DNA of 64,000 bases from Methanolobus profundi (GTDB lineage: Archaea; Halobacteriota; Methanosarcinia; Methanosarcinales; Methanosarcinaceae). The DNA is taken from positions 620,001-684,000 of the forward strand of contig NZ_FOUJ01000001.1 in NCBI RefSeq assembly GCF_900114835.1. Direction: 5' to 3'. The notes under the pieces are model-generated. The model made no database searches, was not told the DNA's origin, and worked only from the letters and a program-made list of their open reading frames with translations. Below, piece by piece: positions 22,456 through 48,048 of the stretch (position 1 is its first letter; every line of letters starts with the position of its first letter). The translations under genes were made by a program, and so were the position numbers.

Positions 22456-24588
22456 ATGAAATGCGTATTGAACATCTCCACTCACTCGTTTGTAATTGCG
22501 TCGCTAATAATGGTGTTTACATCTGTTCCAGTATCGGGTATTTCATATGAAGAGTTCAATGCATCATATTCTCATAGTATGGTCACCACTGATGGCTTAC
22601 AGGAAATGATCCATTATTGGTTAAATGATGAGCAGCTTCCCCTTGAAGAATATGATCTGGAAATTGTAAAAGATGTTCAAACCGGTTATGGAAATGTAAG
22701 TTATTTCTCTATTACCAAAACAAGTGGTGAGCCAATTGATACCAATGACCTTATTATCGTAACTTTTAATCCCAATGCACGCGGGAATAGAACAAGAGTG
22801 ATTTTACCCGGTGTAACAAACACAAAAACCCTTTCATTTGTTGGAACATCGCCTTTCTGGAATGTGGGTAATTTCCCCATTGATGGGCAGTTCTTTGGAG
22901 ATCTTATATTAAAGCCTGGCATGACCATAATTGCTGATGAGTATTCCGTTTATACTGGTGGTACCTGGGATCCAGATAGAGGTGATTATGTACTTGATGC
23001 AGATGGACACATTACCGGTATGCAGGCAATGTTTGCTGACTGGGGAAATGATCCTTCAGACCCGTCTGACGATTCATTGCAACCCGGAGATGTTGTTTCC
23101 GTTATGCTCATTGATTCATCAAAAGATGAGATCATTTTTGAAAAGGAAGTTATTGTTTCGGGCTATCCTAAGCAACCAATAAGGTTAGCAGAAGGTGGAG
23201 CTAATTTCAATATGAGTTCTCCTATTGATGATGGCTTTATCACTTTGGGATATCTTGGAGGTACTTCAGTGTATCCTGAGAATATTGCTATTGAAGTTTC
23301 TCATGGTCTGCCCGTGATGAATGTTTTCCTTGATGATGATACCATATCATATCCATTGAATTCTCCACTGTTACCTGGAGATTCGATCAACATCTCTTTT
23401 GAAAACTGGGTATATGGTCCTAACAGCCAGGTAAAAGGTGTTTTACTGGGCAGTCAGGTTGTTTGTAAAGATGAAGTTTTCAGATTATCTGTAATAGATA
23501 CTTCTTCCAATGAAGTTCTTGATTCAGAACTTCTCATAATGGATGGAGGTGTTCTTCCTGATATAGTGGAGAAAGATGCACTGACATTAAAAGAACTCCA
23601 GACGTGGATACATTGCTGGCTAAATGATATGTCTGAGCCACATTTATCGCCTTCTGCTGAGTTCCACATTGAATTACACAAGGATATTGAAACTGGATAT
23701 GGTAATCTTAGTTATCTAAGTATTCAGCAAACAGCAGGAGATGTGATCCACACAAAGGATTTCAAGATCATCACTACAAATCCGAATGCAAGAGGCTCCA
23801 ATAAGACCAGGGGGGTCCTGCCAAATATTAATAACACAAATACGTTATCTTTGATCGGTGCATCTCCTTTTCTGAATCTGGGCAATTTCCCTACAACGGG
23901 ACAATTCTTTGGGGAATTTGTGATGGAGCCGGGGATTACTATTGTTGCTGATGAATATTCCAATTTTGCTGGTGCGACCTGGGATCCAGACAGAGGAGAT
24001 TATATAAAAGATCCAAAGGGATATCAAACAGGTATGCAGGCGATGTTTGCTGACTGGGGTGATGATCCTTCAGATCCTTCTGATGATTCACTTTCTGCTG
24101 GAGACTCCGTGAATATCAAAATTATCTATACACCAACAGGCAAGATACTTTTTGATGATAATGTCACAGTTAATGAAGATACTGAAACCTATTATCCTTA
24201 TCTGGTCTCTGATCTTGATGGTGATGTTTCACTAATTGGAAACAACATTACATTTGTTTATGAGGGTGGCTATCCCCTCTATAGTGAGCAATTAAAAGTT
24301 ATTTGTATGACAGGTGAACTTCCAGCAGTAAATATAATTGATAAAAGTGAGATTGATTTCCATCTTTCTGATCCTTTATACTATGATGTCGGAGTTGATA
24401 AGCATCTCTTGGATCAGGGAGATGTGATTGAGATCGATCTTTCAACATTAGATGTTTCAAATTCAGGTAGCGGAGGATTCATGCTTGGGAATCTGATTTT
24501 ATACGAGGGAGATAAAGTTACTTTCATGTTGGTTGATACGGATACCGGACAAGTTGTAAATGTGCAGGAGCTGGAAATGAGTGATTAA
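22456..24588 (+). CDS. Secreted A-B-A-B pilin-head fusion protein with half-modules
   Basis: This 710-residue protein has a signal peptide (about 1-28) but no prepilin signal. The mature part is two tandem units. Each starts with one helix of the shared surface module (42-62, TTDGLQEMIHYWLND; 374-396, TLKELQTWIHCWLND), then a domain A (about 65-240 and 402-575), then a domain B (about 243-365 and 578-710). Domain A matches the head of the prepilin at 46844, sharing SPFWN-LGNFP, GQFFG, MTIIADEY and TGMQAMFADWG-DPSDPSDD. Domain B matches the head of the prepilin at 47515, sharing V/ISHGLP and LLG-QVV. The order A-B-A-B repeats the order of the four prepilin genes at 45698-48048. It may bind, cap or imitate the pilus. 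I know of no named family for the whole protein. Confidence 0.85.
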   Translation: MKCVLNISTHSFVIASLIMVFTSVPVSGISYEEFNASYSHSMVTTDGLQEMIHYWLNDEQLPLEEYDLEIVKDVQTGYGNVSYFSITKTSGEPIDTNDLIIVTFNPNARGNRTRVILPGVTNTKTLSFVGTSPFWNVGNFPIDGQFFGDLILKPGMTIIADEYSVYTGGTWDPDRGDYVLDADGHITGMQAMFADWGNDPSDPSDDSLQPGDVVSVMLIDSSKDEIIFEKEVIVSGYPKQPIRLAEGGANFNMSSPIDDGFITLGYLGGTSVYPENIAIEVSHGLPVMNVFLDDDTISYPLNSPLLPGDSINISFENWVYGPNSQVKGVLLGSQVVCKDEVFRLSVIDTSSNEVLDSELLIMDGGVLPDIVEKDALTLKELQTWIHCWLNDMSEPHLSPSAEFHIELHKDIETGYGNLSYLSIQQTAGDVIHTKDFKIITTNPNARGSNKTRGVLPNINNTNTLSLIGASPFLNLGNFPTTGQFFGEFVMEPGITIVADEYSNFAGATWDPDRGDYIKDPKGYQTGMQAMFADWGDDPSDPSDDSLSAGDSVNIKIIYTPTGKILFDDNVTVNEDTETYYPYLVSDLDGDVSLIGNNITFVYEGGYPLYSEQLKVICMTGELPAVNIIDKSEIDFHLSDPLYYDVGVDKHLLDQGDVIEIDLSTLDVSNSGSGGFMLGNLILYEGDKVTFMLVDTDTGQVVNVQELEMSD

Positions 24589-24778
24589 ACTTGCTTACGG
24601 GATCAATCAAAGAACTCGATTTGGTAATTTGTAGATAATCTTCAAAAGTAGGATACAACCTTGTTATCTTTTAAGGTATCATGTTTTAGCTACAACTCCA
24701 GCTATATATAGTCTTCTTCTTTAAGCATGAAATATTAGTTACCAATTGTATGGAAGTGCTATCGTTTCTCTCCCAAAA

Positions 24779-26488
24779 ATGACAAATACAAGACTATGGC
24801 TTGTTTCATTAGCTATTTTCACACTTCTGCCCTATTGTGTGTCCGCATCAGACTGGACCCAGTTCCAGCATGATACTTACAACAGTGGAACAAGTATGGA
24901 CAAAGCTCCGATAACATACCCGGATTTAAATCTTTCATGGGATTATACATTCTCTGGTACAGCAGGATTATCGAATGTATATAGCCCTCCACTTGTTGTG
25001 AATGACACGGTATACGCTGTCACGCCAGATGGAAGTGTTAGTGCAATTAACAAGAGAACTGGTATTGAAAAATGGAGTATTTCTCTTGGTTATATTGGCT
25101 ATCAGCTGGGTGCACCAGCTTTTGGAAATAGTACTTTGTTCATCCCAACATATACAGGAAAAATATTTACAATTGATGCTGAAAATGGAAATGTGGCATG
25201 GAATATATCTCATGGAGGAAAGTGGGGTTTTACTCCTGTTACATATGATGAACACAGGATATTTTTTGGATACTGCAGTGACTGGGAAGGAACAGAGGGA
25301 AAGTATTACTGTTATTATGATAACGGAACAAAGGGGTGGGAGCGAGATTCCACAACAACCGGTGGTTATTATTGGGCAGGTGCAACTGTAGTCGGTGATT
25401 TTCTTATATTTGGTGATTCAGAAGGATTTTTAACTTCAGTGTATAAAGAGAAAGGGACATTACGAGATGAAATTAATGTGGCATCAGTTTTTGGACTTTC
25501 AGACATAGGTAGTATTAAGTCTTCCGTTTCTTATAATGAGATGAACAGCAAGCTATATTTTACTTCAGAAGGGGCAAGTAAAGGATATTTGTTGTCTATT
25601 GTGTTCAATGAAGATGGTACATTTGATGTTTATGATAAATGCTCAGTCGAGATCTTACCCAGTACCTCTACCCCTGCGTATTATAATGGTCGGGTCTACG
25701 CGGGATCAGGTGATCATGACACAGGCGGTAAATTATATTGTTTCAATGGGTCAGACCTGAGTGAAATATGGGAATATGTTCCTAATGGAGGTATAAAAGC
25801 ATCTCCTGTGATAAGTACCGCATACGATGACGGGGAAGGAGAAGTGTATATTTATTTCACTACCAATACTGATAAGGGAAGAGCTTACTGCCTGCGTGAT
25901 CATTCAGACAATAATGCTTCGGAAGAAGTCTGGTACTATCAGCCTCCTTCCGATAAATATCAGTACATCCTTCAGGGAGTTGCAATATCAGATGGATGGC
26001 TGTATTTCGGTAACGATGGCGGTTATCTTTTTGGACTGGCCACTGAAGAAAGCATCAAAATAGCTGCTTTTGAAGCAGAGCCGAGTTCAGGTATTGCACC
26101 TCTTACGGTACAGTTTAATGATACTTCGATCGGTGCTGTTTCGTGGGAATGGGATGTTGACGGAGATGGTGAAGTTGATCACTATGATCAGAATCCTGTG
26201 CATGTGTACACAGTTCCCGGAAAATACACTGTTTCTATTAATGTAACAAGTTCCAATCGCAATGATATGTTGGTCATGGAAGATTACATTTATGTAGGCG
26301 ATGACTGGAATCCGTGGAATGATGAGGATTCAGAAGGAATTCCTGATGGAAGCTACATAACGATAGATGAGGTAATAGAAGCTTATAACTGCTGGAGGTA
26401 TGATGATGTTTCCGATACAGGTTATGATGTATCTATTGATGATGTTATTGAAATGTACAATGCATGGCGATTTAATGTCGCAATGTGA
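24779..26488 (+). CDS. Exported PQQ-like beta-propeller + PKD protein with C-terminal module
   Basis: Taking the ATG at 24779, the protein is 569 residues; a TTG at 24746 would add 11 residues that do not fit a signal peptide. Residues 1-25 are the signal peptide. A PQQ-like (outer-membrane-BamB-like) propeller fills 26-420, with repeats such as W-x-x-F-Q-H-D and V-Y-A-x-x-x-D-G-S-x-x-A-I. A PKD domain spans 427-506 (SWEWDVDGDGE). The C-terminal module (508-569) has DWNPWND and two helices of the pattern I-D-E/D-V-I-E-x-Y-N-x-W-R. No enzyme motif is seen; the propeller is likely a binding scaffold. The gene at 26842 has the same start and end architecture with a beta-helix inserted. Confidence 0.87.
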   Translation: MTNTRLWLVSLAIFTLLPYCVSASDWTQFQHDTYNSGTSMDKAPITYPDLNLSWDYTFSGTAGLSNVYSPPLVVNDTVYAVTPDGSVSAINKRTGIEKWSISLGYIGYQLGAPAFGNSTLFIPTYTGKIFTIDAENGNVAWNISHGGKWGFTPVTYDEHRIFFGYCSDWEGTEGKYYCYYDNGTKGWERDSTTTGGYYWAGATVVGDFLIFGDSEGFLTSVYKEKGTLRDEINVASVFGLSDIGSIKSSVSYNEMNSKLYFTSEGASKGYLLSIVFNEDGTFDVYDKCSVEILPSTSTPAYYNGRVYAGSGDHDTGGKLYCFNGSDLSEIWEYVPNGGIKASPVISTAYDDGEGEVYIYFTTNTDKGRAYCLRDHSDNNASEEVWYYQPPSDKYQYILQGVAISDGWLYFGNDGGYLFGLATEESIKIAAFEAEPSSGIAPLTVQFNDTSIGAVSWEWDVDGDGEVDHYDQNPVHVYTVPGKYTVSINVTSSNRNDMLVMEDYIYVGDDWNPWNDEDSEGIPDGSYITIDEVIEAYNCWRYDDVSDTGYDVSIDDVIEMYNAWRFNVAM

Positions 26489-26841
26489 AGTAACAGCTTA
26501 GCATCATCAATATATTCTCTGATGATCTAAAGCTAAAATCTTGAATATTGGAGTATTTTTTATGGAATAATGGAGCATCAAGTGAAAGTTAATGCTTTTC
26601 TGGAAAATAGTTGCTCCTCTATTTTATTTCAAAAGCTAATGTATATTTGCATTTATTTTTTGTTTATATGTGTTGCTGAATTAGCTTTCTTTTAGTGAAA
26701 AATATCTGACATTACTTTAAGTTAAAAACAGATCATGGTAGCAGTGCAACACATGTTTTGTGAGTTTTATCCTCAGTTCAGTCTCACAATATGAAAAGTT
26801 CTAATCGCATCATGAATCCTGTTTTATAGAGGTGAGTAAAA
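26489..26841. other. Intergenic region with a long imperfect hairpin
   Basis: This 353-base AT-rich gap starts with an imperfect inverted repeat (about 26494-26533, arms AGCTTAGCATCATCA and TGATGATCTAAAGCT) just after the preceding stop, which could end or protect the message. A purine-rich GAGGTGAG at 26829-26836 is the ribosome-binding site of the next gene. Nothing else is recognisable. Confidence 0.4.
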
Positions 26842-29574: not shown

Positions 29575-29641
29575 TGGGTTAAAAGAGCTGATCTCCTCTT
29601 GACAATAGCATTTTCAGGTACATTTTAAATGTATGTTAACA

Positions 29642-29676
29642 GGAGAAAGGAATAATTTTTTCTCCGGGATTTTTTA
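29642..29676 (+). terminator. Hairpin with U-run after the gene at 26842
   Basis: GGAGAAA (29642-29648) pairs with TTTCTCC (29659-29665) over a 10-base loop and is followed by GGGA and six T. It lies 68 bases past the stop codon. Confidence 0.55.
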
Positions 29677-29791
29677 TTCTTATATAAAAAAGCTTTAACT
29701 TATATTTACATCATATAAAATGATATTATTAGTTTTCTCTGTAATGTCATGCTTCCTGTTTTAATGCAATTTTTGGCTCTGTAGAAATCCT

Positions 29792-30040
29792 GTTTATATA
29801 AACGACATAAACGTTGTTTTTTTTATATTTCCAAAAAAACAACCTATAAGCTAAAAACAAAGTAACCATCCGCCGAAGGTGGCACTTTCCAATCCCTCTG
29901 TATAAAGGAACATTGCATTTATGCTTGAGAATTCTACAGAAGACTCGTAAAGTAAGTACGGTGTGTTTGCAGATTCTTTTGTATTGTCTTGTGGGAAACG
30001 CCGGCTTCGCCGGGCCTTTCGGGATAATTCAGGTTATTAA
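29792..30040 (+). ncRNA. Candidate structured RNA with its own TATA box
   Basis: Within a 912-base gene-free stretch, this part is richer in G+C and in hairpins than its surroundings. GTTTATATAAAC (29792-29803) is a perfect palindrome holding a TATA box. GTTGTTTTTTT (29813-29823) pairs perfectly with AAAAAAACAAC (29833-29843). AAAGT (29859-29863) pairs with ACTTT (29884-29888) around an inner hairpin in CCATCCGCCGAAGGTGG (29866-29882). CCGGC-TTC-GCCGG (30001-30013) is another tight hairpin. The spacing from the TATA box would start a transcript near 29822-29826. I do not recognise it as a known RNA family. The next coding gene is about 450 bases downstream, so a long 5' leader or riboswitch is also possible. 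Confidence 0.35.
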
Positions 30041-30486
30041 TGAAAGACGATAAATCGATATACATGACAAAACCGGTCTACTTTTTTTAAGTATTACTGG
30101 CAGGAGTTCTACGGAGCTCATTTTTTAAAAAGGATAAGTTTTCAGAGTATTATTCATTATAGAAAACAGAAGACAATAATTGCTTTTGTTTTAAGTTGGA
30201 AATATGGAGCTTTAACTTATTATTTATTCAATTGGCTTAATTGCTAAATACTAATATTTTGTTGATTAAAAGATAACCTACGTATTTTCTATCATTTTGA
30301 TTCTCTTTAATCGTGATTTATATTTTATATAATCTTGTAAACTAATGTATATTAATCTTTTACATATAGTTATATGTTAAAAAGTTCATTACTGAATAGA
30401 ATGTTAACAGTTGAATATCCACAAAACACCAATTCAGTGTTATGTTTTTCAATTGACTGCATTCTTAAAATATGGGAGAAAAATAA
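30041..30486. other. AT-rich intergenic region upstream of DUF4430 gene
   Basis: No open frame is seen here. TATA-like runs occur around 30250-30375 (for example TTTATATTTTATATAA near 30316), which could drive the gene at 30487. GGGAGAAAAATAA just before the start gives a GGGAG ribosome-binding site. Confidence 0.4.
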
Positions 30487-30960
30487 ATGAAAATAAGATC
30501 AATTCTAAAAATTGCGATAGTTATGCTTTTTGCTATGGCATTGCTTACTGTACCAGCAGCAGCTTCAATAGACATTGACGAAGACGTAGATCTGTCAACA
30601 GGCACATTTACATTTGTACCTTCAAACAATGCAAGTGCCAGTTACACTGTAAACTGGATGACGGTTATGGGTGCGCTCGAGAAAGCTCAGGATGAGAATA
30701 TCTTAACATACAGTGCAGCTGATACCTGGTATGACGATTACGGTTCTTTCTATCTTACAGATATCAATGGAGTTTCTGATGACTATGACAACCATAAGGC
30801 ATGGTTCCTTTACATTGATGGTGAGTATTTATCATATGGTCTTGGACTTAATTCGATCGATGAAGAAGAATGTGCCCAATTCAAATACCATGAATATGAC
30901 ACTACCACATGGGAACCTATTGGAAATCCAATTCACTCAATAGACCTTAATGTAGAATAA
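30487..30960 (+). CDS. Small exported DUF4430-like protein
   Basis: This 157-residue protein has a signal peptide (1-26) and a single domain (about 35-150) of the DUF4430/transcobalamin C-terminal-like type: T-x-x-x-A-L-E-K-A near 60, then KAWFLYIDGEYLSYGLG, which is the family's W-x-x-Y-V-N/D-G-x-x-x-x-x-G-x segment. In transcobalamin this beta-grasp-like domain helps hold cobalamin; in archaea its ligand is not known. Two more copies lie in the protein at 34769. The gene stands alone between long intergenic regions and is closed by a clear terminator, so it is probably one transcript. Confidence 0.75.
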   Translation: MKIRSILKIAIVMLFAMALLTVPAAASIDIDEDVDLSTGTFTFVPSNNASASYTVNWMTVMGALEKAQDENILTYSAADTWYDDYGSFYLTDINGVSDDYDNHKAWFLYIDGEYLSYGLGLNSIDEEECAQFKYHEYDTTTWEPIGNPIHSIDLNVE

Positions 30961-30972
30961 TCTCTCCTTTTT

Positions 30973-31005
30973 AAATCCGGAGTTCCGGATTTCTTTTTTT
31001 GTTTT
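30973..31005 (+). terminator. Strong hairpin terminator after the DUF4430 gene
   Basis: AAATCCGG (30973-30980) pairs perfectly with CCGGATTT (30985-30992) over loop AGTT, followed by C, seven T, G and five T. It begins 13 bases after the stop codon. Confidence 0.75.
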
Positions 31006-31411
31006 TAGGGATCTAAAGTCTTTGTAGATATCAAATCTGCACTTTGTCTTCATCCATATTTTCTACAATCTCACATATTTTGATAGTTTTTAAGAGGCAT
31101 TCGCTTATCAAAACCAATGTCAACAGCGAATCTATCATAGTTATATCTTTAACAAGTTATAATATTGCCAGGGTCGGATATGTTGTTAGTCATATGGATA
31201 ATAACTGGTACAGTATTTTTTCCATTTATATATGTGTTATTATCACTCCTATGCAAGGCATGTGCCCATTTGTAACCAATGCTAATGGTGCATTTTTGCT
31301 TAACATAATGAAATGATCACAAAAACACGAAGTTATCCGACTTGTATGCCGGGTATTACGTGTTGTTTCAACTATACAATTTCAGTTGAAAGCTACTAGC
31401 GGAGGTAGTTT
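31006..31411. other. Intergenic region upstream of the 1095-residue surface protein
   Basis: An open frame of 90 codons (31044-31316, plus) is present but has no ribosome-binding site, no signal peptide and no recognisable domain, so it is not called. GGAGG at 31401-31405 is the ribosome-binding site of the next gene. No repeat or strong hairpin was noticed. Confidence 0.4.
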
Positions 31412-34768: not shown

Positions 34769-37756
34769 ATGAAAAATATGGTTATTAAAAATGGGATTTT
34801 AATAAGCATGGTCTTGATGCTATTATTAGCATCAGCTAGTGCTGCATCTGCACACGATGTAGCAGTTTCAAGGACCATAAGCCCGACGACTGTGACTGCA
34901 GGCGAATCTTTCGACGTCAGTCTTGAAATAACAGTTACAGGTCCTATTACGTCTGAACAAAACTCTAGCTACGCAACGGTAAAGGAATATTATACCGCAG
35001 TTGATGATATGGAGAACTGGATCATAAGCGATGTTTCAGCACAAACTCCTTTTGATGGTGCATTCAAGAACGGTAATAATAATGATACCGGGCTTTTTGA
35101 GTTCTCAACCGGTGGTGGAGCTTTATACTATATGACTTTAGCTTCTGGTGGTAGTGGTACGTTCTACATCAATTACACAATGACCTCATCAGCAAGTGCA
35201 GGAGCTGGTGTCCACAGTATCAGTGGTTATTATACTGATGCCGATTTCTCATCAACCGGAACTGCAGGATACACAGTCGATGTTACAGGTGACTCCGAGG
35301 TCACATTGCTTGCGCCAGTAGACCCGCCAACATACATTGATGATACCATGAGCCTACAGGACGTGATTAACGCATCAGAAAGCGGTGACACCATTATGAT
35401 GGCAGCCGGTACTTATGTCCTTCCAGCTGACCTGTACATAAACAAGAGCGATCTAACCTTCATGGCTAATGGCGGAGAAGTAATCATTACACCGGATGCA
35501 AGTTTAAGTGATATCGATATACATCTTGGTTTGGAGCTTGGTAGTGTAGGTGGTTCAACTGATGTGGGTTGTGATGCTTCAGGTACAACTTTTAATGGAA
35601 TAACCTTTGATAGAATAAACAAACTTGGAGAGCAGTACACTTATATTGATAATATAGATGTGAGCGATGAAAGACTCGAAGATTGTACATTCATTAACAC
35701 ATCTGTAAATCTGGCTCACAATGCAGTGATGAAGAATTGTGTACTAGATTCGTCATCTGAAAGTGTATATATCTATGGTGATAATGTACTCATGGAAGGC
35801 AATATAGGTAGTTGTCGTCAGATCAAAGGTGGAACCTATTCGCTTTCATCAACTACTACCACTCCATGTTCTGATTTCACTATGAAGAATAATGATCTGA
35901 GTTTTAAGTATTTAAACTATAGAACAGGAAGCTGTTTGATAGAAGATAACAATATTACTACAAGTTCTTACATCTCGCTGTACGATAATGTATCCAATAT
36001 TATAAGGGATAATACATTCAGTAGCAGCTATACTTATATGAAATTAGAAGGACAGGTTTATGAAAATGACTTGATCTATACTGGAACTTCAACCACAGCT
36101 TATGTTCAGTTCTATGAGAATGGAACATATTACCTGAACAATATCGGCCATCCTACTGTAAAACTGGAACTCGCAACTTACAGCACACCTGAACCTGTTA
36201 CCTATACCTATGCAGGTGTAGGTCAGACCAGCTATCTTGGTAACTACTACTCTAATTATACAGGTGCCGATACTGACCATAATGGTATTAGTGATGAAAA
36301 TGTTACAGATAGTACTAATGGCGGTGTTGATGAATATCCGCTCATGGGTGCATGGAGTGCAGATGCTAATAGTATAGGAACATCCACCACTGTTCTTTAT
36401 GAGGATACAGTGGAACTCGGATCTGACATGACCTGTACATTTGTCCCATACGACAACACAGGTACAGAATATGACATTGCACCACTTTCAGCAATGGCTG
36501 CACTCATGGCAACAGGTCTTGATATGAAAACATCTGACTGCTGGTATTCAAGTATGGATTCATTCTTTGTAGAGAGCATTGAAGGCTATGACACACCATC
36601 TGACTGGTCAAAGTACTGGGAATTCCGTGTCAACGGTGCAGCTACAAGCTATGGAATTGGAAGTTCTACATTTGACAACGTTTCAGATGGTGACGTTGTA
36701 AGCCTCGTATACGTTGATGCTGCTTCAGGTAGTGATGAATATTCAGTGGTTATCACAGTAGATGTAACAGAGAAGGACGACTTCCTGTACTACGGTGCTG
36801 TTGATCTTGTGACAGACGACACATACACACTAACCCTGCAGGACGATGAGTATACTGTAGATTCATTGAGTGCTCTTGGTGCACTTTTCGAAACCGGTCT
36901 TGAATTTAAGATGAATGATGATGACTATGTAAACTCTAGTTCATTCTATCTTGAATCCATTGAAGATATTAAAGATCCAACAGAAACGTGCTACTGGGCA
37001 TTCTATGTCAATGGTGCATATACCTCATATGGTATCGGACATGTCACAGATGATGTAGTAACTGATGGTGATACAGTAAGTTTCATCCTTACCGACTGGG
37101 ACAGCTATGATGAATATGATGAAGTCCACATCCATGTGAATCAGGTAGATACTCCTGTACTTGTACAGAGAGACATTGCAAACCAGAACTTCTATGAGGA
37201 ATTGCTTACACAGTATGGTCTTACATCTACCAAGGTTACGGTTACCCTTACGGCAAGAGAGGATATTGATTCCCTTGCACTGGAAGAAGTAATTCCTGAA
37301 GGCTGGACCTTAACTTCATCCAATGATGATGAAGGGGTATTTAAGGCAAATCTCACAGACGATACCCGTTATGAGTGGGTCTGGACTGACAAAATGACAG
37401 AAGGTGACAGCAGGACAATTGAATATATTCTGACACTCCCATCTGATGAAGATTCAGGAGAATATCCTGTAGATGGTACTGCTTCTGTTTTTGTTGGTGA
37501 CGATGACATAAACGATATTCCTGTAGTTGGTGACGATATGGTCTATGTATCTGCTACTGACTGGAACCCATGGAACGATATTGATTCCGATGGTAGCAAA
37601 TACATAACAACTGATGAACTTCAGGCAGCTATTAGCTGCTGGCTGAACGACCTTCCAGCTCCAACAACCGGTGATGATATAACAACCAACAGGCTGCAGC
37701 TTTTGGTTCACTACTGGGTACAGAACAAGGAATGTCCGGAGGGTGCTGACGCATAA
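34769..37756 (+). CDS. Exported beta-helix + double DUF4430-like + DUF11-like protein with C-terminal module
   Basis: This 995-residue protein has a signal peptide (1-29), an N-terminal beta domain (30-180; HDVAVSRTISPTTVTAGESF) shared with the genes at 37830 and 38823, a NosD-like beta-helix (188-530), two DUF4430-like domains (547-655 and 663-770; WEFRVNGAATSYGIG and WAFYVNGAYTSYGIG), a DUF11-like domain (797-925) and the module (929-995; DWNPWND, TTDELQAAISCWLND, TTNRLQLLVHYW). The module is of the TTDELQ type, not the IDEVIEAYNCWR type used by the preceding gene 69 bases upstream. Short spacing suggests co-transcription with that gene. A terminator follows. Confidence 0.87.
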   Translation: MKNMVIKNGILISMVLMLLLASASAASAHDVAVSRTISPTTVTAGESFDVSLEITVTGPITSEQNSSYATVKEYYTAVDDMENWIISDVSAQTPFDGAFKNGNNNDTGLFEFSTGGGALYYMTLASGGSGTFYINYTMTSSASAGAGVHSISGYYTDADFSSTGTAGYTVDVTGDSEVTLLAPVDPPTYIDDTMSLQDVINASESGDTIMMAAGTYVLPADLYINKSDLTFMANGGEVIITPDASLSDIDIHLGLELGSVGGSTDVGCDASGTTFNGITFDRINKLGEQYTYIDNIDVSDERLEDCTFINTSVNLAHNAVMKNCVLDSSSESVYIYGDNVLMEGNIGSCRQIKGGTYSLSSTTTTPCSDFTMKNNDLSFKYLNYRTGSCLIEDNNITTSSYISLYDNVSNIIRDNTFSSSYTYMKLEGQVYENDLIYTGTSTTAYVQFYENGTYYLNNIGHPTVKLELATYSTPEPVTYTYAGVGQTSYLGNYYSNYTGADTDHNGISDENVTDSTNGGVDEYPLMGAWSADANSIGTSTTVLYEDTVELGSDMTCTFVPYDNTGTEYDIAPLSAMAALMATGLDMKTSDCWYSSMDSFFVESIEGYDTPSDWSKYWEFRVNGAATSYGIGSSTFDNVSDGDVVSLVYVDAASGSDEYSVVITVDVTEKDDFLYYGAVDLVTDDTYTLTLQDDEYTVDSLSALGALFETGLEFKMNDDDYVNSSSFYLESIEDIKDPTETCYWAFYVNGAYTSYGIGHVTDDVVTDGDTVSFILTDWDSYDEYDEVHIHVNQVDTPVLVQRDIANQNFYEELLTQYGLTSTKVTVTLTAREDIDSLALEEVIPEGWTLTSSNDDEGVFKANLTDDTRYEWVWTDKMTEGDSRTIEYILTLPSDEDSGEYPVDGTASVFVGDDDINDIPVVGDDMVYVSATDWNPWNDIDSDGSKYITTDELQAAISCWLNDLPAPTTGDDITTNRLQLLVHYWVQNKECPEGADA

Positions 37757-37775
37757 GTAAACAGAAAATTTTGAG

Positions 37776-37812
37776 TAAATACCCTGAAAAGGGTGTTTAT
37801 TCCTCTTTTTTA
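37776..37812 (+). terminator. Hairpin terminator after the 995-residue protein gene
   Basis: TAAATACCCT (37776-37785) pairs with AGGGTGTTTA (37790-37799; one U-G pair) over a GAAA tetraloop, followed by TTCCTCTTTTTTATT. Confidence 0.65.
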
Positions 37813-37829
37813 TTAATGGGAGTAAATCG

Positions 37830-38641
37830 ATGGTCAAAAGGATAAATTCGAATTTTATTTTTTCCTCTCTAATGGTTCTTCTAATTGTATCTATCAACCC
37901 ATGCAACGCTGAAATTGCAAATATATCTGTGAGCAGGAATATAACTCCTGATACTATTTCTTGTGGTGAGTCTTTTGATGTAAGTGTTGAAATAGTAATT
38001 GAGGGTGCAGGGGTAATATTTGGGACTCTTTCTGAAGATTACACAGCTTCAGATAACATGCTGGAATGGGAGATAAGTAACATTGATGCTGATTCGGTCT
38101 TTGTTCACTATAAGAATAATGGAGCAGGCATGTATGAGTGGAGTGCTGGCATGAGTACAGTTCCCGAAGGCATTTATCGAATAAACTATCGAATGACCCC
38201 GGCCGAAGGATATGAACTGGGTACTTATCAGGTTAGTGGTAAATGGGTTGATACGGATTATCCAGAGAGATTGGAACCGTTGGGTAGTAACGAAATTACT
38301 TTGAAAGTCTCTGATGCTATATTTTCGTCTGATATCTCTGAAAGTCATTCATCTTCAGTGGGATTAGATCATTGATGGAGAATAGTACAATATCAATTGC
38401 TGAAACTGAATTATCCGGGACTACAAAGATCACTACCAATGACTCTGATCCTGTGAATGCAGAAGATACTAAATTCACTACTTTCTCCGTAAGTTCCCAA
38501 GAGGATACAGCAGCAAATCAGGAGGATCAAATGCCAGGATTTACTGGTGTGCAGATGATCTTTCCAATAATGTCAGTTATGTGCATCTATGACCTGAAAA
38601 ATTTTCATAATTCTTTACTATATGCTAAATTTAAAAAATAA
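37830..38641 (+). pseudogene. Frameshifted surface protein with N-terminal HDV-type domain and PGF-CTERM-like tail
   Basis: The first frame (37830-38375, 181 residues) has a signal peptide and the beta domain shared with the genes at 34769 and 38823 (SRNITPDTISCGESFDVSVEI). It stops at 38373 after a short Ser-rich tail. Another frame, open from 38342 and ending at 38641, continues with a Thr/Ser/Glu-rich stalk and then Q-M-P-G-F-T-G, a hydrophobic stretch and basic residues near the end, much like a PGF-CTERM sorting signal. Joining the frames between 38342 and 38372 would make one lipid-anchored surface protein of about 270 residues. Either one base was lost or gained, or the two pieces are read as separate overlapping genes (the second from a TTG at 38372). 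Neighbouring paralogues end instead in the DWNPW module. Confidence 0.6.
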
Positions 38642-38822
38642 ACTCTATACGGTATATTTCAATTTATGTTATTACGATCAAATAATTCATGCGCAAAGGA
38701 CATGATTGTACTTAAACACAGGACAATATCCTAAGGATTGGTATACTAGATTCTAATAGAGTAATAAAAACACGTTCTCTGATCAGGTAATATGCGGATT
38801 TGAATAAAAAGGGGATTGTGAA

Positions 38823-40745
38823 ATGAACAAAATGAATATCAAAAAAGGTGTTCTATTGTGTATGTTCATGCTATTGCTATCTGTCGTTACAGCTTCAGCA
38901 CATGATGTCACAATAGTGAGAACATTAAACACAACTACTTTGGATGCTGGTGATTCATTTGATGTCAGCCTTGAAATAGTAGTCAGTGGTACGATAGAAA
39001 GTGAGCAAAATACCAACTATGCAACCGTAAAAGAATATTATTCTTCTACAGATGATATGTTGAAATGGACTATCAGCAATGTGACTGCCGACCCTCCTTT
39101 TAACAATGTTTTTAAAAATGGTAATGAGTATAATACTGGTAGGTTCGAATTTTCAACAGGAGGTGCAGCTTTATATTATATGGGTCCTGGTACCTATCAT
39201 ATTGATTACACTATGACATTGCCAGAAAGTGTGTCACCTGATATCTATGATATTAGTGGTTACTACACAGATGCCGACTATTCAGGTTCAGGAGTGAAGG
39301 GAGATGTAGCTGAAGTCACTGGTGATATGCAGGTGAAAGTTACGGGAATTCCGGATTTCTCATCCACTGACTGGACACTATTTCAAACCGGACTGTACAA
39401 CAATGGAGTAACATCTGATAGGGGGCCTATACAGGATCCAGAAGAAAATGAATCCTGGGTGACCTATACATATGGTATTCCCGGGGCACACGGAATAGAT
39501 ACCGTATCCATTGTTGTGGACGAGTTGGTATATGCAGTTACTCAGGGAAATGTATGGGCAATTAACATAGATACGGGTGAAATTGAATGGACCGGTGATA
39601 TTGTAACCGGAGTGACAGCTCCTTTGGGTGCTCCTGCCTATGGCAACGGTAAGTTGTTTGTAAGTTCATTCGGTCAAATATATGCTTTTAATTCCACGGA
39701 TGGTACTATGCTGTGGAATAGATCAGTTGACACAGATAATCCTCTTATTTGCCAGTTAAATACTCCTATTACCTATGATGATGGCAGGATATTTTTCGGG
39801 GAATGGTTATCTTATGTAGATGATGGCGATGAGTGCAAATATTATTGCTATGATGAAGATGGTAATGAGCTCTGGACTCGTTCTTCATCAGAAGATGTTG
39901 GATATTACCGTGCAGGTGCAGCAATTATCAAGCAGTACCTTGTCTACCCTGATGATGCTATGCACATAACGTCTGTAGACAAATATGATGGAACAACTGT
40001 TGATGAAGTGGATATGGCTGATCTGCTTGGTATAGGTACATCCAGACAAGAGATAAGAGCATCTGTCATGTATGACCCCGACTCAGAGCGCCTGTATACA
40101 TCCACACAGGATGGACATTGCATATCAATTGGTTTCAATGAAGATGGTACTTTTGACACTTCGGATGTACATAAATTCGATCTTGGTTTGAAAAGTACGA
40201 CAACTCCTACCTTGTACAATGGTCGTATTTATGTGGGAACCGGGGATTATTCAGTAGGTGGGGATCTTTATTGCCTTAATGCAGATGATCTTACACAAAT
40301 ATGGAGTTATACACCTAATGGTGGTGTGCAGGGATCACCAGTTGTTTCTACAGCCTATGATGATGGAGATGGTGAAGTATATGTCTATTTTACAACTAAC
40401 ATTCTGAATGGAACTGTGTATTGCCTAAAAGATCATGCAGATTGTACGGAACCCGAGCTTCAATGGACATTTCAGGCATCTTCTGACCAAACAGAATACA
40501 CTCTTCCAGGGGTAACTATCAAAGATGGACGTTTATTCTATGGAAATGACCATGGTTATCTTTTCGGACTTGCAGAATGGAATTTCTGGGATGACCCCAT
40601 TTCAGATGGAGGAGAGAACATGACCACTGATGAATTGCAGGAAGCAATTCATATCTGGATCAACGATGATCCTGCAACAGTGACAGGTTCAATTATCACC
40701 ACGGACCGTCTACAGCAACTCATACATAATTGGCTGGAAAGCTGA
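38823..40745 (+). CDS. Exported PQQ-like propeller protein with HDV-type N-domain and C-terminal module
   Basis: This 640-residue protein has a signal peptide (1-27), the N-terminal beta domain (28-175; HDVTIVRTLNTTTLDAGDSF) shared with the genes at 34769 and 37830, a PQQ-like propeller (177-580; STDWTLFQTGLYNNG at its start) and the module (585-640; EWNFWDD, TTDELQEAIHIWIND, TTDRLQQLIHNW). The N-domain shares the segment YATVKEYY...DDM with the 995-residue protein, so the two arose by domain shuffling. A Rho-independent-like terminator follows the stop. Likely a surface scaffold or binding protein. Confidence 0.87.
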   Translation: MNKMNIKKGVLLCMFMLLLSVVTASAHDVTIVRTLNTTTLDAGDSFDVSLEIVVSGTIESEQNTNYATVKEYYSSTDDMLKWTISNVTADPPFNNVFKNGNEYNTGRFEFSTGGAALYYMGPGTYHIDYTMTLPESVSPDIYDISGYYTDADYSGSGVKGDVAEVTGDMQVKVTGIPDFSSTDWTLFQTGLYNNGVTSDRGPIQDPEENESWVTYTYGIPGAHGIDTVSIVVDELVYAVTQGNVWAINIDTGEIEWTGDIVTGVTAPLGAPAYGNGKLFVSSFGQIYAFNSTDGTMLWNRSVDTDNPLICQLNTPITYDDGRIFFGEWLSYVDDGDECKYYCYDEDGNELWTRSSSEDVGYYRAGAAIIKQYLVYPDDAMHITSVDKYDGTTVDEVDMADLLGIGTSRQEIRASVMYDPDSERLYTSTQDGHCISIGFNEDGTFDTSDVHKFDLGLKSTTTPTLYNGRIYVGTGDYSVGGDLYCLNADDLTQIWSYTPNGGVQGSPVVSTAYDDGDGEVYVYFTTNILNGTVYCLKDHADCTEPELQWTFQASSDQTEYTLPGVTIKDGRLFYGNDHGYLFGLAEWNFWDDPISDGGENMTTDELQEAIHIWINDDPATVTGSIITTDRLQQLIHNWLES

Positions 40746-40756
40746 TAGGTCATTTA

Positions 40757-40797
40757 GCAGCACAATACATTTTGTATTTTGCTGCATTACTTTTTTG
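40757..40797 (+). terminator. Two-part hairpin with U-run
   Basis: GCAGCA (40757-40762) pairs with TGCTGC (40780-40785); inside it AATAC (40764-40768) pairs with GTATT (40774-40778). ATTAC and six T follow. It starts 12 bases after the stop codon. Confidence 0.6.
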
Positions 40798-41160
40798 TCT
40801 ATATCATTAAATAATGATTATGTCCATAAATATGGTTATTTATCCTGTTCTGCTGATGTATTTCTGAGGTCGGATACTGAAAAAATAATTCATTGTCATT
40901 GTTTTGGTGTAGTTTCCATAGTATATTTTTTTGATGAATATTTAGTATTGTTGCTAACATGTGTTATTTAATTAAACTCGCTTAAATATTGCTTGCCAGA
41001 TAGGCTGTTTGATTACTGTCTAACTATACAGGCCAGATCTTAAAATTAGTATATGTCAGGCAGTAGTTAGCTGAAAATTGATAATTTATCTTGAATTTTC
41101 ATTTCTTATTTGAATGAAGATTTTAGAGTAAAATTACGGTGGATCAGAGGGGCCATTTAT
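40798..41160. other. Intergenic region upstream of the gene at 41161
   Basis: This 363-base AT-rich region includes an in-frame extension (41110-41160) of the next gene that I exclude because it would put 17 charged residues before the signal peptide. CAGAGGGG (41145-41152) is the ribosome-binding site for the ATG at 41161. Nothing else was noticed. Confidence 0.4.
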
Positions 41161-43893
41161 ATGCAGAAACAAATGCTTACATTATTGATCTTAACATTTA
41201 TTGTCATTTTTAATACTGTTCCTTCCAGTGCAACTTTATATCAGGCCTATAATTCGTCAACTCTTGATGATAAGATATCTGAAGCAAGTCAGAATGATGT
41301 GATCTATCTGAATCCGGGAGTGTATGATACTCCGATCGACCTGGACATAAAAGGTCTGTCGATCATTGGAGCAGGTTCTGATAAGGTCATATTCGATCTG
41401 GACGGCTCATATTTAGAAATGAGTGCTGAAGATTGTGTTCTTAAAGGTATATCTGTAGTTAACAGTTCCAAAGGTGTTCAGGTAACATCATCAGGTTGTA
41501 AGATCAGCAAATGTGTATTTGATGGACTTACTTATAGCACAGGTATTTACATAAAAGAAGATAATACCATTTTTACTGACAATGTAGTTTCCAATTGTAC
41601 AGGAAAGTATTTTGCAATTTATGGTCTGGGTCATGATTGTACCTACAGTGGAAATACCTTTATCAATAATAGTTGTGCAGCTCTTTCACTTTATACGAAC
41701 AGTGACAATAATGCTGTATATTACAATGTTTTTCAGGAGAATCAATATGGTATATATCTCTATAGTTCAGGAACTGGAAATGAGATATATCTCAATGATT
41801 TCATAGACAATGATGAAAACATTAAAGCAACTGATCCACCTTCAATTGAGTGGAACTCTCCTGAAATTATAGCTTACACTTGCAACGATGACTCATTTTC
41901 AAGTTATCTGGGCAATTATTGGGGTGAGGACAGTGGATACGATATAAATAATAATGGTATTCTTGACAGTTCATATACTATCTCCTATGGAGCAGGAACT
42001 GACCAATACCCTCTGGCAAGTCCATTCGGGAATTATATTGATATATCCGCAGGACCCGTTGATCTGATCGTTGATTCATTCTCTTCATCTTCACTGGTAG
42101 CAGACCAGCCGAACAGAATAAGAGTAAATATCTCAAACATCGGTCAAACAAATGCCGATGCCTTTAAAGTGGTTCTGTATTATGGAACTGAGTCTCTTGG
42201 AGAAGAGGTAATACCATATCTTGCTTCAGGTAGTACCACTCAGGCTTCTTTCACTTTGCTGTTTCCTGCAGGAGATATCAGTTTAAAGGCTGTTGTTGAT
42301 ACTGAAGATAGTGTAGAAGAAACACTGGAATCGAATAATGAAATGTCAGCAACGCTTGTATCTGAAAGTGTTGAAATTGACGAGAACTGGTTCCAGTTCC
42401 ACAAAGATGTGGAACATACTGGTTATTATCCTGGTAATGGTCCGGACGATGCAACTCTTCTGTGGGTAAGCGATGATATCAATGCGGTTGGGAGTTCCTC
42501 TCCTGTAATTGCTGAAGGTACGGTCTTCATTAACTGTGGTGACTCTGTCATGTCGTCTACAGGAGATGATTCCTCCTCTGTAACAGGCCTTGACATGTAT
42601 ACAGGGGAAACAATAGGCACATTTGGTGATGGAGGTACATCCTGGGGTTCCTGGGTTTCTCCATGCTATTATGAAGGTAATATCTCTTGTGGCAGGTCAG
42701 ATTCCGTTAACGGTGGAGATCTGATCGTAAACGGTAAAAGATATGTTGGGGATTACGAAGGGTATACTTATTATTGTACATATGAAGAGAACGGTACATC
42801 AGTCTGGACAAAAGCTGTAAATGGCCTTGCAATGGGAACTCCGGCCTATTCTGATGGAATGGTATATTTTACCAGTTGCAAGTTTGAACTATCAGGTGAT
42901 GTTTATTGTGTAGATGCTGAAACCGGAGATACTATATGGCATATTAGCACCCCTTCCGGACATGATGCTTCAAGTGTAGGAACTACTGTTTACAATGATA
43001 TCCTGTATTTCACAACCTATAACTGGAATGGTAATGGGGATATCTATGCTGTCGATAAATATGATGGTTCCATCATCTGGAGAAAGACAATACAAAGGAC
43101 AGACTCATGTCCTGCTGTTGCATATGGTAATGTCTATGTTTGCGGTGGATGCCCTGGTTATAGTAAGTTACAATCATACTGTTTTGATGCTGTAACGGGT
43201 GAAGAGATCTGGAGTACAACTGCAAGTTACAGTGGTATAGGTGCCTGGACATGTTCTCCAGTGGTTGCTGATGGTAAATGCTACATCGGAAAGATGGATC
43301 CCACCATGTACAGCTATAGTTCGATCTATGCGTTTGATGCATACGATGGAAGCACTATATGGAGTTCTTCAGGTGGAGGTGCCAGTCCTGCAATTTCCGA
43401 AGGTATTCTGTATACTGTTGGAAATGATGGCAAGGTGTATGCTTATGGTTCCCTTTCTGAACCGTACGCTGAATTCACAAGTAACGTTTCTTCAGGTACT
43501 GCACCCCTGGCAGTCTCCTTTACAGATCGGTCCGGAACAAATATCACAGGATGGCAATGGGATTTCGATAATGATGGAGTTATAGATTCCACAGAGCAAG
43601 ATCCAGTTCATGTGTATGGAGCAGTCGGGAAATATACTGTTTCTTTAAAAGTAACAAATAATGAAGGAACTGATACTGAGGTAAAAGATCCATGCATTTC
43701 TGTTATCGATGCAAATGATGATGAATGGAACATCTGGGATGATTCCGATTCAGAAGATGGAGCTAAAATTACAACTGATGAACTTCAGGATGCTATTCAT
43801 TATTGGATAAATAATATCCAAATAACAGACTCAGGAGATGTAGTGACAACTGACAGATTACAAGAGGTCATTCATGAATGGTTACAAAGTTAA
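41161..43893 (+). CDS. Exported beta-helix + CARDB + PQQ propeller + PKD protein with C-terminal module
   Basis: Starting at the ATG at 41161, which has GAGGGG nine bases upstream and opens a clean signal peptide (1-25), the protein is 910 residues. It holds a NosD-like beta-helix (30-297), a CARDB domain (298-405), a PQQ-like propeller (408-763; FQFHKDVEHTGYYPG at its start, like the first propeller at 31412), a PKD domain (768-848; WQWDFDNDG) and the module (853-910; EWNIWDD, TTDELQDAIHYWIN, TTDRLQEVIHEW). A start at 41110 is open but unlikely. The next gene starts 26 bases after the stop, so both probably share a transcript. Confidence 0.86.
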   Translation: MQKQMLTLLILTFIVIFNTVPSSATLYQAYNSSTLDDKISEASQNDVIYLNPGVYDTPIDLDIKGLSIIGAGSDKVIFDLDGSYLEMSAEDCVLKGISVVNSSKGVQVTSSGCKISKCVFDGLTYSTGIYIKEDNTIFTDNVVSNCTGKYFAIYGLGHDCTYSGNTFINNSCAALSLYTNSDNNAVYYNVFQENQYGIYLYSSGTGNEIYLNDFIDNDENIKATDPPSIEWNSPEIIAYTCNDDSFSSYLGNYWGEDSGYDINNNGILDSSYTISYGAGTDQYPLASPFGNYIDISAGPVDLIVDSFSSSSLVADQPNRIRVNISNIGQTNADAFKVVLYYGTESLGEEVIPYLASGSTTQASFTLLFPAGDISLKAVVDTEDSVEETLESNNEMSATLVSESVEIDENWFQFHKDVEHTGYYPGNGPDDATLLWVSDDINAVGSSSPVIAEGTVFINCGDSVMSSTGDDSSSVTGLDMYTGETIGTFGDGGTSWGSWVSPCYYEGNISCGRSDSVNGGDLIVNGKRYVGDYEGYTYYCTYEENGTSVWTKAVNGLAMGTPAYSDGMVYFTSCKFELSGDVYCVDAETGDTIWHISTPSGHDASSVGTTVYNDILYFTTYNWNGNGDIYAVDKYDGSIIWRKTIQRTDSCPAVAYGNVYVCGGCPGYSKLQSYCFDAVTGEEIWSTTASYSGIGAWTCSPVVADGKCYIGKMDPTMYSYSSIYAFDAYDGSTIWSSSGGGASPAISEGILYTVGNDGKVYAYGSLSEPYAEFTSNVSSGTAPLAVSFTDRSGTNITGWQWDFDNDGVIDSTEQDPVHVYGAVGKYTVSLKVTNNEGTDTEVKDPCISVIDANDDEWNIWDDSDSEDGAKITTDELQDAIHYWINNIQITDSGDVVTTDRLQEVIHEWLQS

Positions 43894-45626: not shown

Positions 45627-45697
45627 CTTGCAATTTAGACCACATCTTGTACAATATTACTATTTTGTCTATTTTTATAGATATCAGAAGGTGGAGT

Positions 45698-46336
45698 ATG
45701 AGATATATAAAACAACGAAAAACGTTTTTACGTAATAGTGCAGCCGCATCACCTGTGATCGGTGTCATGCTTATGGTGGTGGTTACTGTAATCCTTGCAG
45801 CTGCTGTAAGTTCATATGCAGGAGGAATTGGAGGTAATACAAGAACAGCACCGACTGCAACATTTGAAGTACAGATAAAAAAAGATGTAGATATAGGAGG
45901 TGACACTATCTCTTTTATTAAGATCAAAGAGATCACTGGAGACTCTATTGATACAAGTGATCTTAAGATAATAACTTCATATATTGATGATAATGGCAAT
46001 TTCTCTATCACAGAGGTCTATCCGAATTCTGAGAACACATATTTGATAAATGGTGGCTCTCCTTCAATATCCAGTGTTTCTCCTTACTGGAGTAATCCGG
46101 CAATTGGTGATTTTGGTACGGATGAGGAAGTTAATTTCGGAAACTATGTTCTCAAACCAGGAGTCGTAATGATTGCTGAAGCCAATGAAAATGATGTTCC
46201 TGCAGATGATGCTACTGGCATGGAAGCATTAGTATCATGCTGGGAAAATGTCAGTTCAGGTGATTTTATAAGTGTCACTCTGGTTCACACTCCAAGTGGT
46301 AAGCCCATCTTTGATTCAGATGTAGAGGTGGTATGA
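45698..46336 (+). CDS. Archaeal type IV prepilin, head type A (A1)
   Basis: From the ATG at 45698 (preceded by AGGTGGAG) the protein is 212 residues; an extension from 45647 has no site and spoils the signal. The N-terminus is a class III prepilin signal of the DUF1628/Pilin_N type: basic residues, then A-A-A-S-P-V-I-G-V-M-L and a long hydrophobic helix (about 16-38). The head has SVSPYW, NFGNYVLKPGVVMIAEA and TGMEALVSCW, a diverged version of the head in the prepilin at 46844 (type A). It should be cut by an EppA/PibD-type peptidase and built into a pilus. The next gene starts immediately at the stop. Confidence 0.88.
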   Translation: MRYIKQRKTFLRNSAAASPVIGVMLMVVVTVILAAAVSSYAGGIGGNTRTAPTATFEVQIKKDVDIGGDTISFIKIKEITGDSIDTSDLKIITSYIDDNGNFSITEVYPNSENTYLINGGSPSISSVSPYWSNPAIGDFGTDEEVNFGNYVLKPGVVMIAEANENDVPADDATGMEALVSCWENVSSGDFISVTLVHTPSGKPIFDSDVEVV

Positions 46337-46834
46337 TTGAAAAAACAATATAATATATTTTCAAATACAACAGCTGTATCACCTGTAATTGGAGTTATGC
46401 TGATGATAGTTGTTACAATAATACTTGCAGCTGCCGTTAGTTCTTTTGCAAACAGCACTGAATCTCAGGAGATGGCACCTCAGGTTACATTGATGGCAGA
46501 AGCATCGATCCAGGATGGTTATCTTCTTCTCGAGCATTTAGGCGGTGATACTATTGACAGAAGGGACATACGGATAGAGATCGAGTCCGGATATCCAGCG
46601 ACTTCAGGATATGTGGATATCGATAAAGTTACTTTTTCTCCGAATAGTAATTTTCTAAATCCAGGTGATGAGGCAAGGGTGAATTTCACTTCTTCAGCAT
46701 CTTATGATCTTATAACTTTTGATGGGTCTGAAATATATCAGGAAGTAGAACTTGGTGAACCTTTCAGGATAACTGTTATAGATACCAGTTCCGGACAAAC
46801 CATCTACTCTAACAAGGTCACACTATTACCATGA
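46337..46834 (+). CDS. Archaeal type IV prepilin, head type B (B1)
   Basis: This 165-residue prepilin starts with TTG at 46337, right after the stop of the previous gene, with GAGGTGGT as a ribosome-binding site inside that gene's end. The signal is K-K-Q-Y...AVSPVIGVMLMIVVTIILAAAVSSF. The head is of type B: L-L-L-E-H-L-G-G-D near 60, ES-GYP, and near the end F-R-I-T-V-I-D-T-S-S-G. It resembles the prepilin at 47515 more than its immediate neighbours. The alternation A1-B1-A2-B2 suggests that A and B heads assemble as pairs. No peptidase gene is in the window. Confidence 0.88.
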   Translation: MKKQYNIFSNTTAVSPVIGVMLMIVVTIILAAAVSSFANSTESQEMAPQVTLMAEASIQDGYLLLEHLGGDTIDRRDIRIEIESGYPATSGYVDIDKVTFSPNSNFLNPGDEARVNFTSSASYDLITFDGSEIYQEVELGEPFRITVIDTSSGQTIYSNKVTLLP

Positions 46835-46843
46835 GGTGAATAA

Positions 46844-47518
46844 ATGAAAAAATTAAAAGGATTTTTAAATAGCTCATTGGCTGCATCACCTGTAATAGGT
46901 GTAATGTTGATGGTTGTTGTTACTGTTATTCTTGCAGCCGCTGTCAGTTCATATACTACTGGTATGCTTCCTGGTTCACAAGACGTGCCAAAAGCTTCTT
47001 TTGATGTTGACATGAGAAAAGATATCAGCACCAGTCATGGTAATATGAGTTACATTGCCATTACTATGGTGACAGGCGACAAGATCCCATCAAAGGATCT
47101 TAAGATCGTTACGATAAATCCAAATGCAGAAGGTGAGTACAAAACAAGGGAGATCTTGCCTAATAATAACAATACAGCTACTCAGTCTTTTACCGGAGTA
47201 TCTCCTTTTTGGAATTTAGGAAATTTCCCTACTACCGGACAGTTCTTTGGAGAATATATGTTAGAGTCGGGAATGACCATAATTGCTGATGAATATGCTA
47301 ATTATGTAGGCGCAGTCTGGGAACCTGATACAGGAAAATATACAACGAATCCAGATGGGAATATGACAGGTATGCAGGCAATGTTTGCAGATTGGGGTGA
47401 TGACCCTTCCGATCCATCTGATGATACAGTCCATTCTGGAGATGTTGTTACAATAAAAATAATTCATACTCCAACTAATAAGGTGATCTTTACAAAAGAT
47501 GTGGTGGTATCATCATGA
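46844..47518 (+). CDS. Archaeal type IV prepilin, head type A (A2)
   Basis: This 224-residue prepilin starts 10 bases after the previous stop, with GAGGTGAA just before the ATG. The signal is L-A-A-S-P-V-I-G-V-M-L followed by a hydrophobic helix (15-40). The head (45-224) has SPFWNLGNFP, GQFFGEYML, MTIIADEY, TGMQAMFADWG and D-P-S-D-P-S-D-D. This is the closest match in the window to both A domains of the secreted fusion protein at 22456. The stop overlaps the next start by four bases (ATGA), so A2 and B2 should be made together. Confidence 0.9.
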   Translation: MKKLKGFLNSSLAASPVIGVMLMVVVTVILAAAVSSYTTGMLPGSQDVPKASFDVDMRKDISTSHGNMSYIAITMVTGDKIPSKDLKIVTINPNAEGEYKTREILPNNNNTATQSFTGVSPFWNLGNFPTTGQFFGEYMLESGMTIIADEYANYVGAVWEPDTGKYTTNPDGNMTGMQAMFADWGDDPSDPSDDTVHSGDVVTIKIIHTPTNKVIFTKDVVVSS

Positions 47519-48048
47519 AGGCAAATAGAAGAATATTCCTATCTGAAAATGCTGTCAGTCCGGTAATTGGTGTAATGTTGATGATAGTTGTGACTGTGAT
47601 CCTTGCTGCTGCGGTTAGTTCTTTTGCAGGCAGTGTTGAAACCCAGGATGATCCTACGCAGGCGACCTTTGATGTCTCATGTTCTGCTTCTGATGGCTTG
47701 ATAATTATCAAGCACATGGGAGGGGATATAATATACAAAGAAGATATCAAAATGATGATATCCCATGGTCTGCCTAAAATGACAGGTTATCTTTCAAAGG
47801 AAAATCTTACATTCTATCCTGCTGATCAGCAGGTCAGAGATGCTGCAATGGACAAAGTCTCACTGCAACCCGGACAATTGGCAACCTATAAATTTGATAA
47901 TGATTATCGACATTCCAACAATACAGGTGAAATAGGCTGTTTACTTGGTGATCAGGTAGTAATGGTCGGGGAAACATTTGAATTTACACTTGTAGATGTA
48001 AATACTGAAAACAGTATTTATGAAGCTAATGTTGTGATGGAACCTTAA
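47515..48048 (+). CDS. Archaeal type IV prepilin, head type B (B2)
   Basis: This 177-residue prepilin overlaps the A2 gene by four bases. The signal is N-A-V-S-P-V-I-G-V-M-L with a hydrophobic helix to about 36. The head has I-I-I-K-H-M-G-G-D, M-I-S-H-G-L-P-K-M-T-G-Y, GCLLGDQVV and E-F-T-L-V-D-V-N-T. It matches the B domains of the fusion protein at 22456 (SHGLP, LLG-QVV) and the B1 prepilin. The stop codon lies inside the stem of a terminator hairpin, so the four-gene prepilin transcript likely ends here. Confidence 0.9.
   Translation: MKANRRIFLSENAVSPVIGVMLMIVVTVILAAAVSSFAGSVETQDDPTQATFDVSCSASDGLIIIKHMGGDIIYKEDIKMMISHGLPKMTGYLSKENLTFYPADQQVRDAAMDKVSLQPGQLATYKFDNDYRHSNNTGEIGCLLGDQVVMVGETFEFTLVDVNTENSIYEANVVMEP

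Follow-up and report, generated by a model that had tools for sequence, protein, structure and literature searches.

A secreted protein of Methanolobus profundi raises the question of why an archaeon should export four pilin heads on one chain, alternating in two types (A-B-A-B), when four prepilin genes of the same locus alternate in the same way. We analysed the locus within a window of 64,000 nucleotides (contig NZ_FOUJ01000001.1, positions 620,001 to 684,000); all coordinates below count from the first letter of the window. We asked what the protein, here called the fusion, is built of, where its order of heads comes from, how it is distributed and what it may do.

Layout of the fusion and likeness of its heads to prepilins

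The earlier note on this DNA, made from the letters alone, had described a secreted A-B-A-B protein of 710 residues without a prepilin signal, and the open reading frame, its coordinates and the head profiles agree with that description (Table 1). On inspecting the sequence, we found neither a class III prepilin signal nor a hydrophobic pilin helix in the chain. Type IV pilins depend on a class III signal and an alpha1 helix to be processed and polymerised, and the fusion is therefore predicted to be exported without either step. A Pfam scan of the fusion gave Pilin_N (PF07790) and a sub-threshold Poly_export match and nothing else; the Pilin_N match lies inside the chain and covers only the head part of the profile (positions 32-75 of 78); TIGR02537, the N-terminal model for archaellins and pilins, did not match the fusion. 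The four prepilins (P1 to P4) each match Pilin_N including its helix (E 1e-18 to 1e-22) and also match the archaellin/pilin N-terminal model. For P1, whose frame has an alternative TTG start at 45647, the ATG at 45698 is the sensible start. In a sequence search against solved structures, the prepilins matched the archaeal pilins 8fj5, 8gi2 and 9myg, chiefly through the helix region, and the fusion had no match. Judged by its sequence, the fusion has heads homologous to pilin heads and lacks the class III signal and N-terminal helix of archaeal type IV pilins; because the pilin helix is absent, it is not classed as a modular pilin either, that is, a pilin module with its N-terminal helix and a grafted domain.

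Table 1. Coordinates of the fusion, the prepilins and associated genes in the window
Feature	Positions	Strand	Basis
Fusion gene, 710 aa: signal peptide, helix, A1, B1, helix, A2, B2	22456..24588	+	
Fusion Sec-type signal peptide MKCVLNISTHSFVIASLIMVFTSVPVSG, residues ~1-28	22456..22539	+	sequence
Fusion helix h1 VTTDGLQEMIHYWLND	22582..22629	+	common to C-terminal doublets of three neighbours
Fusion head A1, P3-type	22648..23163	+	pairwise, tree, profiles, AlphaFold
Fusion head B1, leans to P4-type	23164..23565	+	pairwise, trees, profiles, AlphaFold
Fusion helix h2 LTLKELQTWIHCWLND, second copy	23581..23628	+	half-to-half alignment, helix matches
Fusion head A2, P3-type	23656..24183	+	pairwise, tree, profiles
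Fusion head B2, most diverged of the heads, leans to P4-type	24184..24585	+	pairwise, profiles
Three secreted proteins (34769, 38823, 41110) with the LQxxIHxWL helix as C-terminal doublet	34769..43893	+	
Prepilin P1, A-type	45698..46336	+	ORF, Pilin_N, tree
Prepilin P2, B-type	46337..46834	+	ORF, Pilin_N, tree
Prepilin P3, A-type, nearest relative of both fusion A heads	46844..47518	+	ORF, Pilin_N, tree, profiles
Prepilin P4, B-type, 4 nt overlap with P3	47515..48048	+	ORF, Pilin_N, trees, profiles
PilB-like ATPase, PilC-like membrane protein and two more genes, downstream of P4	48924..54009	+	

The A heads are the closer of the two types to their prepilin relatives. A1 and A2 are 56% and 61% identical to P3, 58% identical to each other and 35-36% identical to P1, and B1 is 32% identical to P4 and 33% to P2, with B2 28% identical to P4; the pairwise head comparisons gave z scores of 12-100 against shuffles. 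We rebuilt the head profiles from prepilin heads alone, which avoids circularity, and set the database size to 1000. These profiles matched A1 with 164 bits, A2 with 181, B1 with 55 and B2 with 24 (iE 2e-49, 1e-54, 5e-16 and 2e-6, respectively), B2 of the copy in a second genome (G059) reached 43 bits, and none of 200 shuffled fusions was matched. The claimed likeness of the A heads to the prepilin at 46844 (P3) thus holds, and 33 positions, including FFG and AMFADW, are invariant across the fusion A heads and the P3-like prepilin A heads. The motifs SHGLP and LLG-QVV, put forward for both B heads, occur in B1; in B2, which matches much more weakly, the counterparts are TGELP and MLGNLIL.

Structure prediction had been proposed as a way to see whether A and B heads share an interface. 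We folded a single helix-A1-B1 module with AlphaFold because an alignment of A and B heads together placed B heads wrongly on A2; a fold of the full-length fusion from a B-rich alignment had a mean pLDDT of 57, with poor A heads. The module reached a mean pLDDT of 78 and a pTM of 0.64, A1 being mostly at 80-95, B1 at ~65-90, and the A-B linker and N-terminal helices low. The heads are modelled as separate beta-rich domains. Across the linker (residues 214-220) pLDDT is below 50 and so no A-B interface is predicted; a fixed one is neither shown nor excluded by the model. Foldseek with both models returned generic matches of low TM-score, tandem Ig-like proteins in the PDB, with no pilin among the best 50.

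Origin of the head order and pairing of A and B prepilins

The order of heads in the fusion had been thought to mirror that of the prepilin genes, which would make A1 the counterpart of P1. The maximum-likelihood tree instead groups both fusion A heads with P3 (100/99), apart from P1, and the AU test rejects a clade of fusion A1 and P1 (p 0.005). A P3-type profile gives 236 bits for A1 and 257 for A2, against 42 and 60 with a P1-type profile. Trees, AU test and lineage-specific profiles together rule out a copy of P1-P2-P3-P4. The P4-type profile outscores the P2-type one on each B head (46 vs 35 on B1, 21 vs none on B2), and P2-origin alternatives in the B-head trees have p-AU values of 0.09-0.25. 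Both A heads thus descend from P3, and the B heads probably come from P4 rather than P2. The two halves of the fusion align end to end, the helix before each A head included. The fusion is therefore a single [helix-A-B] unit, drawn from the P3-P4 pair, that has been doubled within the chain; in the simplest history, P3 and P4 heads were first joined behind a helix and a signal peptide, and the unit was then duplicated. Gene conversion between the fusion and the prepilins was not seen; A1s, A2s and P3s group by position and not by genome.

Independently of the fusion, A- and B-type prepilin genes travel together. We counted neighbours in 34 regions, including 20 extra ones, most of them from other genera and families of the phylum. 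Another prepilin directly follows 41 of the 43 A-type prepilin genes, and in 35 of the 43 cases it is recognisably B-type; the two genes mostly overlap by 4 nt or lie no more than 4 nt apart (typically -3 to +4 nt). This is strong support for the proposal that the two types form a natural pair. The head distances of paired A and B prepilins are correlated (Mantel r 0.78 over 24 pairs, species relatedness uncontrolled), and the correlation drops only from 0.39 to 0.17 when partners are exchanged within genomes. The A-to-B pairing is possibly a general sign of two-subunit pili and, whatever the fusion does, predicts that many archaeal pili across the phylum are two-subunit fibres. Downstream of P4, the order of the assembly genes is kept in relatives.

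Distribution, selection and surroundings of the fusion

Our survey took one genome per species and covered the class (238 genomes) and the phylum (393); it found the fusion in three, all Methanolobus (3 of 112 genomes of the family): G000, G059 (64% identical) and G060 (86%). A search for the same architecture in other Methanosarcinaceae, which the earlier note had suggested, thus finds it in the same locus each time. Fusions in genomes with no such prepilins, named there as evidence against the idea, did not turn up: all three genomes have the A-B-A-B prepilin-pilB-pilC operon, 22-25 kb from the fusion, which lies outside it. All other A heads in the class and phylum genomes sit in open frames of 115-356 residues, about prepilin size, as against 612-727 for the three fusions, and no relative was found in plasmids or viral contigs. 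Three of the five genomes with A-B-A-B prepilins carry the fusion and none of the ten other genomes with A heads does, a co-occurrence that may go back to a single origin. In G061 the entire locus and a complete A-B-A-B operon are present without the fusion, and G044 has the operon with no fusion anywhere in the genome. The fusion is therefore not needed for pilus building in these relatives, and its absence there argues against a core assembly role.

Compared between G000 and G059, the fusion gives a dN/dS of 0.16 (708 codons, high dS; Nei-Gojobori, a rough estimate), and so the protein is maintained by purifying selection; B2, at 0.27 by the same rough method, has the highest dN/dS of the four heads and is the least constrained. 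These values, and a frame that is open in both genomes, make it most improbable that the fusion is a decaying or non-functional gene kept in a few lineages, an idea that its patchy presence and the state of the G060 copy would otherwise suit. In that copy an A-run one base shorter (AAA vs AAAA) breaks the frame near residue 612 (G060:C1 ~1390306-1390330), the remainder of B2 being intact in the next frame; a sequencing error and a real frameshift are both possible.

Between G000 and G060, dS of the fusion is 0.37, as against 0.69-2.0 in nine further genes from this locus (Nei-Gojobori, rough), which suggests a recent between-species exchange of the fusion gene. Such exchange is seen for defence traits, and the low dS would suit a soluble decoy, in which the outward face of pilus heads, free in solution, titrates away pilus-docking agents such as viruses. 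The nearly intact A-head motifs would also fit, and pili are virus attachment sites in archaea and bacteria (PMC7911016). A decoy would leave the helix module unexplained, however; positive selection was not found, and the present analysis knows of no virus of these hosts. We hold this reading to be improbable.

The helix that a decoy would leave unexplained, an amphipathic LQxxIHxWLN segment, opens each A-B unit of the fusion and recurs in its neighbours. The three secreted proteins at 34769, 38823 and 41110 end in doublets of it (ITTDELQDAIHYWINN ... VVTTDRLQEVIHEWLQS), and h1 matches these doublets with z 11-12 and h2 with z 6-9.5; h1 is modelled as a helix with low confidence. The doublets look like dockerin repeats, and the Pfam scan called no dockerin family on the doublet-bearing neighbours scanned. 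We infer that the helix is a module borrowed from the fusion's own locus, perhaps attaching it to the same surface assembly. The neighbours carry two classes of dockerin-like C-terminal doublet, LQxxIHxWL (34769-43893) and EVIEAYNCWR (24746-34699), and the 18-45 kb block as a whole is a cassette of mosaic secreted proteins with PKD, PQQ-propeller, NosD and CARDB domains and terminal modules in common.

Two PilB-type ATPases bracket this cassette. The second, stand-alone one (16751-18334, minus strand) is 61% identical to that at 48924, has no adjoining platform protein and is 80% conserved in G061. Further along the window, 59587-61800 encodes a single protein of 737 residues with NifH-like and nitrogenase-component-1-like domains, adjoining a component-1-like protein (58502-59590, minus strand) and FecCD/ABC transporter genes.

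The cassette supports plain domain recruitment, by which Ig-like beta-sandwich pilin heads and the LQxxIHxWL helix would have ended up in a mosaic surface or matrix protein that need not touch a pilus. The gene content and order around the fusion vary between genomes, the B heads are strongly diverged, and the generic Foldseek matches would also be expected of such a protein. Against it, the fusion keeps both head types in A-then-B order with P3-type A loops, not one module reused, and occurs only where its parental A-B-A-B prepilins occur. Recruitment is nearly as likely as the reading that we prefer, which is that the fusion binds pili.

A candidate pilus-binding accessory and its known counterparts

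We tentatively favour, at somewhat less than even chance, a non-polymerising pilus binder: an accessory that would decorate, bridge or cap pili through head-to-head contact, which we infer, and would modify the pilus without being a core assembly part. As sequence, trees and profiles show, an ancestral Methanolobus joined the heads of P3 (A) and probably P4 (B) behind a Sec signal and the LQxxIHxWLN helix, and the [helix-A-B] unit now occurs twice. If A and B heads adjoin as subunits in the P1-P4 pilus, as the conserved gene pairing and the ArlB1/ArlB2 precedent below suggest, the fusion would offer two copies of the A-B repeat in soluble form, and it could link the pilus to the LQxxIHxWL-bearing surface proteins of its own locus. 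Pilus binding is favoured by the homology of the heads and their P3/P4 lineage, the doubling of a unit that includes the helix common to the neighbours, the A-to-B pairing with its distance correlation, purifying selection, the invariant A-head positions and the restriction of the fusion to one locus in genomes with A-B-A-B prepilins. The lack of a predicted A-B interface, the two genomes with the operon and no fusion, and the possible single origin of all co-occurrence weigh against it, as does the wide divergence of the B heads, B2 above all, from P4, which would be odd in a strict mimic. We consider it unlikely, if less so than a decoy, that the pilus is a polymer of A-B pairs and the fusion a secreted mimic of two repeats, docking by the native interface so that the fibre is capped, bundled or limited.

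Several known systems share parts of this design. Archaeal type IV pilins (Pilin_N, PF07790), here the A- and B-type prepilins of the locus, have heads homologous to all four of the fusion, which differs from them in the missing class III signal and alpha1 helix, in carrying four heads per chain and in having no known route to polymerisation. In the archaellum of Methanocaldococcus villosus, ArlB1 and ArlB2, homologous but differently headed and encoded in one operon, alternate along the strand and are possibly added as preformed dimers, the pair being proposed as the building block (PMC8821640). The likeness lies in two subunit types side by side, which the A-to-B prepilin genes match; the difference is that ArlB1 and ArlB2 both have helices and polymerise, whereas the fusion is soluble and alternation in the Methanolobus pilus is hypothetical. 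PilC/PilY1, which sits at the tip of bacterial type IVa pili without being a pilin (PMC10191384), offers a precedent, by analogy only, for a type IV pilus partner that is secreted and does not polymerise; the fusion, unlike it, is built of pilin heads, and the Pfam scan found no PilY1/PilC family match and no PilC/PilY1 C-terminal beta-propeller domain in it. Dockerin and cohesin modules are known from methanotrophic and methanogenic archaea (PMC9012536), and half of the neighbours' dockerin-like doublet precedes each A-B unit; the fusion itself has single helices without calcium loops, unlike the paired calcium-binding F-hand repeats of a dockerin, and no Dockerin_1 match in the Pfam scan.

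Modular pilins with grafted adhesive domains (PMC10191384) likewise testify to domain shuffling between pilins and surface proteins, and the fusion is their converse, with pilin heads grafted on a non-pilin and the pilin helix lost. In keeping with the earlier note, which knew of no protein of this design, a search of open-access literature turned up no account of tandem pilin heads without a helix, and the archaeal pilus census PMC4858521, searched by words, mentions neither fusions nor soluble forms. Pilin heads as such are known; a paired set of them, secreted on one chain that does not polymerise, is to our knowledge new. Such a concatemer gives a handle on whether multi-pilin archaeal pili are heteropolymers and on which subunits touch, and, if it binds the pilus, would represent a new means of regulating or decorating a type IV filament, by way of the filament's own heads.
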